64,000 nucleotides of DNA from Nitrosomonas sp. (GTDB taxonomy: Bacteria; Pseudomonadota; Gammaproteobacteria; Burkholderiales; Nitrosomonadaceae). The stretch spans positions 1-64,000 of the forward strand of contig JAJFJJ010000095.1 of the NCBI GenBank assembly GCA_021774195.1, written 5' to 3'. The notes under the pieces are model-generated. The model was not told the DNA's origin and searched no databases. It saw nothing but the letters and a program-made list of their open reading frames with translations. Below are positions 25,804 to 31,656 of the stretch, piece by piece (positions within the stretch are counted from its first letter, which is position 1; each line of letters begins with the position of its first letter). The position numbers and the translations under genes are program-made.

Positions 25804-26034
25804 ATTTAGACCACCCTAATCTTGTAGTTAAAGCCAGTATCTCTAGCTTCTCTGAATATGCATGTTGACAACTTGCCACAAATTTCCTCCAGCACGCTCA
25901 ACACAGATTTCTTCTTAATTTGGCAACAAGCTATTAATACTCAAAAACCCTTTTATTGAATGATACCTAGCTGCTATATGTTGCAAAATATCTTCAATTA
26001 CAATCTAACATCAACAGAAATAGAGGATCATATG

Positions 26035-26330
26035 TTTCATCGCCATCAACCCAATATTTTAGTTTCCGATGTTAGTGCGCATTCGCAGTGACAAGAATAC
26101 GACTCTCTTTCAGAGAACAACAACTTGTAGGATACCTGTGTAGAAAACAATTCCTTACATCACATGCTCTACCGGCCACAATTAAGAATGTGCATATTCA
26201 AGTCATGATAGCATTCTTGGCACCCTCCAACTCCTGCCTCGCAACATTGGAGATTTTGACGTACAGCATGCTTTCTTAAATATTTCTTCCATTAGTATGC
26301 CATGCAGCGTTCCTTTCCGATATATTCGAA
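26035..26330 (-). pseudogene. degenerate RelE/ParE toxin plus antitoxin 3' end, empty-site paralogue of 28230-28830
   Basis: Nucleotide similarity throughout to 28230-28535 and 28782-28830, without MITE-B. Confidence 0.8.
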
Positions 26331-26705
26331 TCAAGGGGGAGGGGGGGGCAGACACCATTGTTTCTGTTTGTCAAAAGATCATATGTAACACGATTGACGC
26401 CTTTTAAATTACACTTTCAGGGTGTCTCTAAAGAATCCATATTTCATCCCTACTGCTGTGTTACGGAAATAACTTCTTACTTAAATACCGACCCTACGCT
26501 GCACTGTTAACTATCTCCACCCCTTGCATCTGAATAAACTCTAGATCTTTAAAAGTATCTTCAAATACGTTCTCAATTCTTTCGGTTTCAACACACAAAG
26601 GCCAAGAAAGATACAAAAAAATTGCTAGTCTGTGTCAAAAACCGCATCTCTTAATTGATTGTGACATTTTACAGTTTATCCCTTAGCTTCATTGCGACGC
26701 ACTAT

Positions 26706-28229: not shown

Positions 28230-28529
28230 TTATGTTTCATCGTTACCAACCCAGTAGTCTGGTTTCCGATGCTGGTGCGCAATCGCAATGACAAGAATAT
28301 GATTCTCTTCCACTGAATACATCAATTTGTATGGAAACTTGTGAAGAAGACACTTCCTCACATCGCCACGCTCTATCGACCACGCTTGAGGGTGCACGGC
28401 GATTCGTAACGCGGCCTTCCGCACTTCCTCCTTAAAGTTTCTTCCAAGCCCCGCATATTCGAGTTCATAGTAGCGGATAGCATCTTCCAATTCCTGCCTC
28501 GCAAAGCTGGTGAATATGACACGCATCAT
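28230..28529 (-). CDS. RelE/ParE-family toxin
   Basis: MRVIFTSFARQELEDAIRYYELEYAGLGRNFKEEVRKAALRIAVHPQAW...VIAIAHQHRKPDYW. Confidence 0.9.
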   Translation of the reverse strand: MMRVIFTSFARQELEDAIRYYELEYAGLGRNFKEEVRKAALRIAVHPQAWSIERGDVRKCLLHKFPYKLMYSVEENHILVIAIAHQHRKPDYWVGNDET

Positions 28530-28540
28530 TTTCCCTTAAA

Positions 28541-28781
28541 CCTAGATAAATCAGTTGAACACAGAATTTGCATTGAACATAAGGCTACAAGGCAAGGCGC
28601 CGTTCGCAGTCAATGGCCGTACCCCTTGGCAAGAGCGGCAACACAGTATTATGGCCTTAGATTCAATGCAAAACTGTGTCGCGTGATTATAATCACCTTC
28701 ATGGTGTGCAAAACACTTGATCTCTACATTTGTTATTCAGTCGCACATATGCGGTTCTAGCAGTCAACTGATTTTTCTAGG
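28541..28781. mobile_element. MITE-B copy B1
   Basis: CCTAGATAAATCAGTTGA...TCAACTGATTTTTCTAGG with TTAAA on both sides. Confidence 0.85.
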
Positions 28782-29044
28782 TTAAATATTTCCTCCATCG
28801 GAATACCATGCAGCTTTCCTTCCCGATATGCTCTGAGCCTATTTTCTGCCTCTTCCGCCCAAATCTCATCTAGTTCTTTGTCCGGCTCGTCTAAGCTCTT
28901 TATCAAGCCCTCAAGCAAGACAAACCGTTCCTCAGGTTTTAATTTCATTGCTTGATCTAATAGTTCTTTAGTACTCACGGTATGCTCCTCAAATTTTATA
29001 AAACATAACGAATTGTAACGTAACGCTAGGTCAAACCAGCCCAA
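28757..29044 (-). CDS. addiction-module antitoxin; C-terminal residues encoded by MITE-B
   Basis: TKELLDQAMKLKPEERFVLLEGLIKSLDEPDKELDEIWAEEAENRLRAYREGKLHGIPMEEIF + NLEKSVDC; true start probably the internal V/M of VSTKELL. Confidence 0.82.
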   Translation of the reverse strand: MGWFDLALRYNSLCFIKFEEHTVSTKELLDQAMKLKPEERFVLLEGLIKSLDEPDKELDEIWAEEAENRLRAYREGKLHGIPMEEIFNLEKSVDC

Positions 29045-29048
29045 CGTT

Positions 29049-29125
29049 TAAATCCCAGTAACTGATGCAACATACGGGTTAATATATTGAAGGTAATCAA
29101 GCAGCCTTTTCTGGTCTCGATTCAT
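29049..29125 (-). pseudogene. truncated N-terminus of the partner gene (DUF86/HepT-like)
   Basis: ATGA overlap then MNRDQKRLLDYLQYINPYVASVTGI*. Confidence 0.45.
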
Positions 29126-29412
29126 ATCGGAATAGATTCACGTAATATTTGTTCACGAAATGCATCAGGCAAACCGTTTGGCGTTAGAACATCAACATCA
29201 ATACCCAGCAAAGCTTTTATCTCAAACCGAATTGCCCCAATATCCATTAATGTTGTTTCAGGTGTTGGGTCAACTAGCAAATCCAGATCGCTATCATCCG
29301 TATCTTCACCACGAATAACAGACCCAAATACGCGAACATTGGTTGCATGATGGGCTATAACAACTGATATTATTTGCTCTCGGTGAATTTGTAGGGCTTC
29401 AGAAGGACGCAT
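29122..29412 (-). CDS. MNT-family nucleotidyltransferase
   Basis: NVRVFGSVIRGEDTDDSDLDLLVDP. Confidence 0.9.
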   Translation of the reverse strand: MRPSEALQIHREQIISVVIAHHATNVRVFGSVIRGEDTDDSDLDLLVDPTPETTLMDIGAIRFEIKALLGIDVDVLTPNGLPDAFREQILRESIPI

Positions 29413-29551
29413 AGTTTTCCTCTAATGAATCAAAGAAATAAGACACCATTAAATTTCCGTTTCCAACATTTACTCTAAAATTCTCACGGCAGCTCGGCCT
29501 GGTCACATTTTCCATTCTTTAAATTCCTGCGCACAGGATGATCCAACAACT

Positions 29552-29959
29552 TTATGAGGTTGCCACCCAATTCTCTAGCTTCAAACCTTTAATACGTTCA
29601 AACTCACGTGTATTATTTGACAACAAAATCATATCTAATGACAAGGCAATCGCGGCAATTTGAATATCATAAGATCCTATTGGTGTCCCCTGTTTTTGTA
29701 ACGTATCACGAACACAAGCAGCTTTTTTTGCCGCTTCTAAGTTAAAATCTACCACTGTTAACGGCGCTATAAAATTCTCTAAAGCAGTCAAATTACGTTG
29801 ATGAGAGTTGTTTTTTTGAATTCCATAGTGAAGTTCATACACTGTAACTGTAGAAATATGTAACTGCTTAAGCTGTATTTGTTGAAAACGCTTAAAAACC
29901 TCAGGTGGACATTTCTTGATCAAGTAAATACAAATATTAGTATCCAGTAAATATTCAGT
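29552..29959 (-). CDS. vapC: VapC PIN toxin
   Basis: EYLLDTNICIYLIKKCPPEVFKRF...GSYDIQIAAIALSLDMILLSNNTREFERIKGLKLENW. Confidence 0.93.
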   Translation of the reverse strand, partial: TEYLLDTNICIYLIKKCPPEVFKRFQQIQLKQLHISTVTVYELHYGIQKNNSHQRNLTALENFIAPLTVVDFNLEAAKKAACVRDTLQKQGTPIGSYDIQIAAIALSLDMILLSNNTREFERIKGLKLENWVATS

Positions 29960-30188
29960 CACACCAATCGCGCTCCTGTGTTTCGAGTTGCTCACGCACG
30001 TTTGTCATACAATCATCTGAGAACTGGTTTATCGCCTCAAACCATTGCTCCCAAGAGTCTTCTATCGGCTCTAAGATAATTTTATTACCTTGTTTAGAGA
30101 TTTTAACCTCATTACCCGACAGTCTAAACGCCTTAGGCAAACGCACCGCTTGAGAACGACCGTTTTTAAACAACTTTGCTGTTTGCAT
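29955..30188 (-). CDS. vapB: VapB antitoxin
   Basis: MQTAKLFKNGRSQAVRLPKAFRLSGNEVKISKQGNKIILEP. Confidence 0.93.
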   Translation of the reverse strand: MQTAKLFKNGRSQAVRLPKAFRLSGNEVKISKQGNKIILEPIEDSWEQWFEAINQFSDDCMTNVREQLETQERDWCD

Positions 30189-30211
30189 GATGAAATCTCC
30201 CCAAATTTAAC

Positions 30212-30234
30212 GGTATAGCTTTTAAGTATATACC
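30212..30234. promoter_or_regulatory. candidate VapB operator (inverted repeat)
   Basis: GGTATA-N11-TATACC upstream of vapB. Confidence 0.4.
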
Positions 30235-30251
30235 ATGTCACTGGGAAGGTG

Positions 30252-30503
30252 CTAGTACGCAATGACAAGAATATGATTCTCTTCCACTGAATACATCAAT
30301 TTGTATGGAAACTTGTAAAGAAGACACTTCCTCACATCGCCACGCTCTATCGACCACGCTTGAGGGTGCACGGCGATTCGTAACGCGGCCTTTCGCACTT
30401 CCTCCTTGAAGTTTCTTCCAAGCCCCGCATATTCGAGTTCATAGTAGCGGATAGCATCTTCCAACTCCTGCTTTGCAAAGTTGGTGAATATGACACGCAT
30501 CAT
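30252..30503 (-). pseudogene. second RelE/ParE copy, C-terminally truncated, no antitoxin
   Basis: Near-identical to 28230-28529 but ends ...HILVIAY*. Confidence 0.75.
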
Positions 30504-30514
30504 TCTCCCTTAAA

Positions 30515-30992
30515 CCTAGAAAAATCAGTTGAACACAGAATTTGCATTGAATCTAAGGTTACAAGGCAAGGCGCCGTTCGCAAACAATGGCCGTAGTCCT
30601 TGGCAAGAGCGGCAACACAGTATTGTGGCCTTAGATTCAATGCAAAACTGTGTAGCATTATCCTAAAATCCTCAGTTGATCGCTTCAGAACTTACTAGCC
30701 TTATGAAATAAAACGAATATTTTGTCAAATGTTACGCACCCTAAAGGTGAACCACGCTATGATACTTATAGCGCACTGTTCTTTATCTTTTGCTACGTTG
30801 CAATTCGTTGTAATAACTCGTTCACGCCTCTTTGCGCCTTGCCAAAAATAAACAACAATGCACTCTAAACATCATCCAACTGAGGATTTTAGGATTATTA
30901 CAGTCACCTTCATGGTGTGCAAAACGCCTGATTTTAACGTTTGTTATTTAGTCACTTATAAACAGTTTTAGCGGTCAACTGATTTTTCTAGG
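30515..30992. mobile_element. MITE-B copy B2, carrying nested MITE-A A3
   Basis: CCTAGAAAAATCAGTTGA...GTCAACTGATTTTTCTAGG with TTAAA flanks. Confidence 0.85.
30662..30893. mobile_element. MITE-A copy A3, inside B2
   Basis: CCTAAAATCCTCAGTTGA...CAACTGAGGATTTTAGG with ATTAT duplication. Confidence 0.9.
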
Positions 30993-31201
30993 TTAAAGCA
31001 TTTTTTTATATTCTGTAACAACAATACGGAAACCAGAAACCAAACAAACTCAGCTTTACATCCTTGCCGAAATAACTGCGGGAAAGACTTTAGGGCGCCT
31101 TTAGAAATTCACCTATATTCTTGTGAGATCTTCTTTCGTGATTTAGGATATTTTCCTTCTGACAAATTTGTGAGTAGTCTGTATGTTATAAAACACGTTT
31201 A

Positions 31202-31322
31202 GTAACTATTCAACTTACTTCTAGAATTCACTATTTCTGCGTTACAAAATGATCATTTACACGTGTAAACTCACATTTTGCGCCTTGAACTGATGAAGTC
31301 TAGAGGCAATCAGAACAGTTAC
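31202..31322. repeat. MITE-F copy F1 (121 bp)
   Basis: GTAACTATTCA...TTTACACGTGTAAA...CAGAACAGTTAC. Confidence 0.85.
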
Positions 31323-31333
31323 TGCATTATAAT

Positions 31334-31565
31334 CCTAAATTCCTCAGTTGATCGCTACAAAAACAACCAACATTATGAAATTACAAATAATATTTTTAAT
31401 ATGATGCATACCTTTTTGGTGAGCCTCGCTATAATGTTTATAGCACGCTATTCTTTCATTTTAGCTGTGTTGCAATTCGTTGCAATAACTCGTTCACGCC
31501 TCATTGCGCCTTGCTAAAAAGAAACAATATCGCACTCTAAACACCATCCAACTGAGGATTTTAGG
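31334..31565. mobile_element. MITE-A copy A4
   Basis: CCTAAATTCCTCAGTTGA...CAACTGAGGATTTTAGG with ATAAT duplication. Confidence 0.9.
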
Positions 31566-31656
31566 ATAATCCGTTGTGATGCTGTCAATGAATGATTTGT
31601 GTGGCGCTGTTTTCTTCAATACGCCGATTACGTCTTCTACTCATTTTTGTAGAAAA

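Follow-up and report, generated by a model that had tools for sequence, protein, structure and literature searches.

Adjacent, co-directional and usually overlapping genes are typical of type II toxin-antitoxin modules, though not strictly defining, and it is widely assumed that the overlapping order keeps production of a type II toxin matched to that of its antitoxin. A Nitrosomonas locus within the 64,000-nucleotide stretch of DNA that was analysed (hereafter the window) raises the question of what becomes of such a pair when a mobile element comes to lie between its genes. Along the minus strand, an antitoxin gene (28978-28757) is followed by an element (28781-28541) and then by a toxin gene (28529-28230). 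The toxin and antitoxin genes are co-directional but 227 nt apart owing to the insertion.

The toxin gene, tox2 (28230..28529, minus strand), is intact and encodes a 99-aa ParE-type protein that matches PF05016 (E=6e-11, 43.2 bits against a cut-off of 23) and is up to 87% identical to homologues spread over many phyla. The antitoxin gene (28757..28978, minus strand) encodes 73 aa and matches both PF09720 (E=5e-16, 59 bits against a cut-off of 23.3) and TIGR02574 (37.4 against a cut-off of 31.9). By these family assignments the split pair is a putative type II toxin-antitoxin operon that combines a PF09720/TIGR02574 antitoxin with a PF05016 ParE-type toxin. Alignment with orthologues, which begin MSTKELL, places the antitoxin start most likely at GTG 28978 rather than at 29044, where the original prediction had it; homologues use ATG at this position. 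A search for PDB homologues of the toxin and antitoxin proteins returned no credible match for either, and a search for plasmid relatives of the locus found none.

We refer to the intervening element as copy W2 of MITE-B (28541..28781), a 241-bp non-coding sequence of IS1380 type. Comparison of element copies identified a TTAAA target-site duplication on both of its sides, at 28536..28540 toward the toxin and at 28782..28786 toward the antitoxin. These flanks and the terminal repeats bear out the earlier claim that a 241-bp element with duplicated TTAAA parts the antitoxin from the toxin. MITE-B ends consist of 18-bp inverted repeats, CCTAGA(A/T)AAATCAGTTGA, which agree at 17 of 18 positions in W2 and perfectly in most other copies; counted together with TTAAA, the W2 repeats extend to 23 nt at 91%. 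No open reading frame longer than 44 aa lies inside W2. MITE-B is a MITE in each defining respect: it is short, lacks a transposase, is present in multiple copies, ends in terminal inverted repeats and is flanked by a target-site duplication.

A search of the same Nitrosomonas genome (a 2.97-Mb assembly in 150 contigs, incomplete at 91%) gave 48 BLAST matches to MITE-B, or roughly 40 copies, a number that is a lower bound because many copies stand at contig ends, where the assembly broke at the repeat. Such terminal copies occur at the right end of contig C145 and on C79, C105, C125, C11 and others. Exact 5-bp AT-rich target duplications flank 18 of 20 full-length copies, and the duplicated sequences include TTAAA, TTTAA, TTAAT, ATAAT, ATTAT, ATAAA, TTCAA and TTTAT. 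Allowing at most one mismatch, a search for the MITE-B end sequence gave 71 occurrences in this genome. Of 84 other genomes of the genus, 78 lack the sequence and 6 carry it between 1 and 6 times each; the reversed pattern that served as a control matched once in total. Judged from its copies, ends and duplications, MITE-B is a real transposable family.

A candidate partner is provided by a sister Nitrosomonas genome (G004), which carries a 1,695-bp element with the same 18-bp ends, at one mismatch (C36:385-2079). A single long open frame in this element (505 codons) encodes a transposase that scores above the cut-off for PF13701 (68.7 bits; cut-off 34.7) and for which the best NCBIfam match is IS1380 NF033539 (1e-37, 129.7 bits), below the equivalog cut-off of 180; the latter score suggests a divergent IS1380 branch. 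This element is the single whole copy seen, and its flanks do not match (GTAAT and TTTAT); it may be rearranged. In the genome that holds the split operon, 91% complete as assembled, we found no intact transposase partner; it does contain decayed pieces of this IS1380-like transposase (L187, L188 and L189, on contigs C16, C122 and C124). L188, which spans 543 bp and has kept both ends, is a deletion derivative and as such stands between a complete element and a MITE. MITE-B is thus best described as a putative IS1380-type MITE, an assignment in which the identity of the transposase is taken from the shared ends, and the IS1380-like transposase of the decayed pieces probably mobilised it. The MITE-B ends, starting CCTAG, presumably resemble those of ISEcp1, a likeness that we treat as a lead only. 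These findings would add to Nitrosomonas an abundant and apparently undescribed MITE family linked to an IS1380-like partner.

What did the operon look like before the insertion? The original prediction pointed to an empty-site paralogue in the same window in which a single TTAAA joins the remnants of toxin and antitoxin, and such a relic is indeed present on the minus strand at about 26031..26331 (copy 1), with its single TTAAA at 26276-26280. It is heavily degenerate, carrying stops and a deletion, and for this reason homologues outside the window serve better as empty sites. Among homologues from named genomes and from the genus, 38 such operons have an antitoxin whose stop codon can be located with respect to the start of the toxin. 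The two genes overlap by 4 nt in 19 operons and by 1 nt in 14; one pair abuts, and the remaining four are spaced by 2, 5, 8 and 12 nt, with none beyond +12 nt. None of the 38 contains an insertion between toxin and antitoxin, and the stop-to-start spacing of 227 nt seen here is the sole exception to the pattern. The gap has therefore widened, as had been proposed, although the values differ from the suggested growth from near zero to about 240 bp: the ancestral state is a 4-nt overlap and the present spacing is 227 nt.

The sequences at the two junctions show what the insertion changed and what it spared. In close homologues the junction reads ATATTTAAGGAAGAATGATGCGC; here the element follows TTTAA, a second copy of which lies beyond it, and the toxin side still reads TTTAAGGGAAAATGATGCG. 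The toxin start codons were kept, as was a Shine-Dalgarno-like motif, AAGGG (28533..28537, minus strand), which precedes the first and second ATG codons by 3 and 6 nt, respectively, and occupies the position of AAGGA in close homologues. AAGGG was retained because the duplicated TTTAA supplies its AA.

On the antitoxin side, the last native codons were lost, and a NLEKSVDC tail and a TAG stop are read from the element, as had been foreseen for the tail. The C-terminus consequently reads MEEIF-NLEKSVDC, compared with MEEIFKEE in homologues. In the right end of most MITE-B copies, all three frames are closed by stops within 25 nt, so a gene entered from that side ends quickly. Among 20 MITE-B copies, W2 is the only one that clearly truncates a recognisable gene, and we accordingly dismissed the idea that MITE-B habitually cuts gene ends. 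The PF09720 match stops before the element junction. A structure model of the antitoxin (mean pLDDT 80, pTM 0.39) places the last helix at residues 61-70 and assigns low confidence to the tail (65, then 47). The tail is likely, on the basis of this model, a short extension rather than damage to the core.

Loss of the overlap bears on how the toxin is translated. Translational coupling is documented for kis-kid (PMC3920265). At the locus described here, coupling was likely lost, as the original prediction proposed. This is a reasonable reading of the sequence, since an overlap of 4 or 1 nt is found in 33 of the 38 homologues and ribosomes translating the antitoxin would now stop 227 nt short of the toxin start. 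A hairpin at the toxin start is present in close homologues, at a strength no greater than that of shuffled sequence (mean z -0.28). We therefore rejected this hairpin as an obligatory coupling device; ancestral coupling is attributed to the overlap alone, and we do not claim that it was obligatory.

A different possibility is that the element regulates the operon, either through cleavage of its hairpin, by RNase III for instance, or through a promoter at its end, with toxin and antitoxin now under separate control. W2 is predicted to fold into a hairpin of -85 kcal/mol (z -5.8), and a strong hairpin is common to all MITE-B copies by virtue of their inverted repeats. RNase cutting and regulation have been reported for other MITEs (PMC10969869) and proposed elsewhere (PMC5896051), and IS1380 members can carry outward promoters (PMC9330008). 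A consensus scan of W2, however, identified no promoter- or terminator-like site, including any promoter directed toward the toxin. The fold itself also gives no sign of selection: compensatory change affects only 2 of 82 pairs, with no covariation beyond the symmetry of the repeats, and on these grounds we dismissed selection on MITE-B RNA structure. A search of the element for known RNA families gave no credible match. We regard a regulatory role of this kind as unlikely. We assign slightly lower probability still to the idea that the hairpin and the new antitoxin tail together reset the toxin:antitoxin ratio and that selection kept the split arrangement. Were the element a working part of the operon, the locus would amount to a natural experiment on how much the overlap matters in type II toxin-antitoxin systems.

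The history of the insertion can be followed further through a third toxin copy, tox3 (30246..30503, minus strand), which together with its toxin-MITE junction was absent from the original prediction. tox3 is 93-94% identical to tox2 in amino acids and 96.8% in nucleotides, and adjoins a second copy of the element, W3 (30515..30992), through the same toxin-MITE junction as tox2. It has lost its C-terminus and has no antitoxin behind it, nor was one found when we looked beyond W3; tox3 is probably dead. W3 is interrupted by a nested element (30662-30893; 232 bp, ends CCTAAAATCCTCAGTTGATCG, ATTAT duplicated), and a further element similar to the nested one lies at about 31336-31568. Part of a separate, very abundant repeat of ~125 bp, partly self-complementary and present in at least 40 copies in the genome, occupies 31201-31330. 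The interval 29122-30188, between the two toxin copies, holds a VapBC module, in which NCBIfam VapB and VapC equivalogs score above cut-off, and a gene for an MntA-like nucleotidyltransferase-domain protein (29122-29412), forming a small toxin-antitoxin island.

The simplest reading of the two junctions is a single insertion followed by duplication of toxin and element to a place ~2 kb away. W2 and W3 occupy the same base in the same orientation and share two derived sites, 46 C->T, which is unique to them, and 52 A->G, which also occurs in a single other copy. Two independent insertions, in which W2 and W3 each struck the corresponding TTAAA beside a separate toxin copy, as at a target hotspot, would explain why the two elements differ by 11.3%, near the background between copies, and why a tree groups them with weak support (84/75). 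The shared position, orientation and derived sites nonetheless argue against two insertions, as does the left part of W2, which is nearest to W3 (7%) in a way that fits the toxin dS (8%); we consider a double insertion improbable. Recombination between copies was also considered as an origin of W3, the right part of which differs from W2 at 17 of 95 sites and the left part at 10 of 142 (P=0.012), and was not concluded because the right part is more variable in several copies. A third route to the same arrangement is one-ended transposition as a transposable module, by which IS1380 elements such as ISEcp1 or ISPme1 mobilise adjacent DNA (PMC9330008), and which could have carried off the tox3-W3 unit while leaving the antitoxin behind. 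That tox3 adjoins W3 and lacks an antitoxin would fit, but such a unit would have to be bounded by a matching TTAAA on the opposite side of tox3, and none is present there (30200-30260), so this route seems very unlikely.

If a single insertion preceded the duplication, differences between the two copies inform on how the toxin has evolved with the element beside it. W2 differs from the MITE-B consensus by 11.6%, W3 by 7.6% and the others by 0.8-6.2% among the copies aligned; that W2 is the most diverged of these suggests an old insertion. Neither this sign of age nor the conservation of the toxin had been noticed in the original prediction. tox2 and tox3 show 4 synonymous differences and 3 nonsynonymous ones (dS 0.081, dN 0.016, omega 0.19; P=0.04 against neutrality, on the small count of 7 differences). 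Across the adjoining elements, W2 and W3 differ at 27 of 237 sites, compared with 3 of 194 nonsynonymous sites in the toxin (P=3e-5), and this level of difference is not distinct from that at synonymous toxin sites (P=0.62). The pattern suggests that the toxin has been under purifying selection after the insertion, provided that the insertion came before the duplication.

These observations also bear on the alternative that the insertion broke the module, leaving the toxin silent and the locus to decay like copies 1 and 3. Two of the three toxin copies are relics, the antitoxin starts with GTG instead of ATG and the element hairpin is very stable, all of which would suit such an outcome. tox2 and the antitoxin are nevertheless intact next to the most diverged of the aligned elements, and the low omega between tox2 and tox3 also counts against decay. 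We find decay doubtful, if worth keeping in mind.

The explanation that we favour, and hold to be probable, is that an IS1380-type MITE split an overlapping pair and left it uncoupled but tolerated. In the ancestor, the genes overlapped by 4 nt, with the antitoxin TGA inside the toxin ATGATG. The element, 241 bp long and non-autonomous, then entered TTTAA, a few codons ahead of the antitoxin stop, and this 5-bp target was duplicated; an IS1380-like transposase would have acted on it in trans. The antitoxin thereby acquired NLEKSVDC and the stop of the element, and the toxin retained its start codons and AAGGG. Both genes are probably still read as one transcript, since the scan of the element detected neither a terminator-like site nor an inward promoter-like one. 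Termination-reinitiation coupling would have been lost, so that the toxin would be made independently and probably in a smaller amount relative to the antitoxin. The split pair appears to have been tolerated, a later duplication would have placed toxin and element at a second site about 2 kb off, and the toxin has seemingly been under purifying selection since. With the overlap abolished yet the toxin gene conserved, the coupling assumption becomes testable on an evolved rather than an engineered construct.

Described MITEs include one inside an operon (Chunjie), others at the 3' ends of genes (QMITE1/2) and some that form in-frame fusions (the Rickettsia elements) (PMC10969869, PMC5896051), and interplay between a MITE and a toxin-antitoxin locus has been described as recombination in Pseudomonas plasmids (PMC6354349). 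The literature that we searched, of partial coverage, contained no case of a MITE separating the partners of a type II module, nor any account of MITEs in Nitrosomonas. A MITE at the end of an operon gene is already known; one that splits a type II toxin-antitoxin pair seems to be a new case.

A comparison with known systems reveals where this locus follows precedent and where it departs from it. Like members of the IS1380 family (ISEcp1, ISPme1) and their MITEs, MITE-B has 5-bp AT-rich target duplications and a candidate partner whose transposase fits IS1380 models best; unlike IS1380-family elements, it has no coding capacity, and its partner falls below the NCBIfam equivalog cut-off. The Chunjie element of Geobacter uraniireducens is likewise a short MITE (235 bp) with many intergenic copies in its genome and one copy in an operon, in that case for phosphate uptake (PMC10969869), whereas MITE-B is another element and lies in a toxin-antitoxin pair, which Chunjie does not. 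QMITE1 and QMITE2 of Coxiella (PMC5896051) and the Rickettsia palindromic elements (PMC10969869) resemble MITE-B in replacing or extending the end of a host product, but here the tail has eight residues and the insertion separates two overlapping genes whose dosage ratio is important. Finally, the order of a PF05016 toxin downstream of a PF09720 antitoxin is that of ParE/RelE-superfamily toxins with TIGR02574 antitoxins, and the locus differs from the usual pairs of this type in having a 227-nt gap in place of an overlap.
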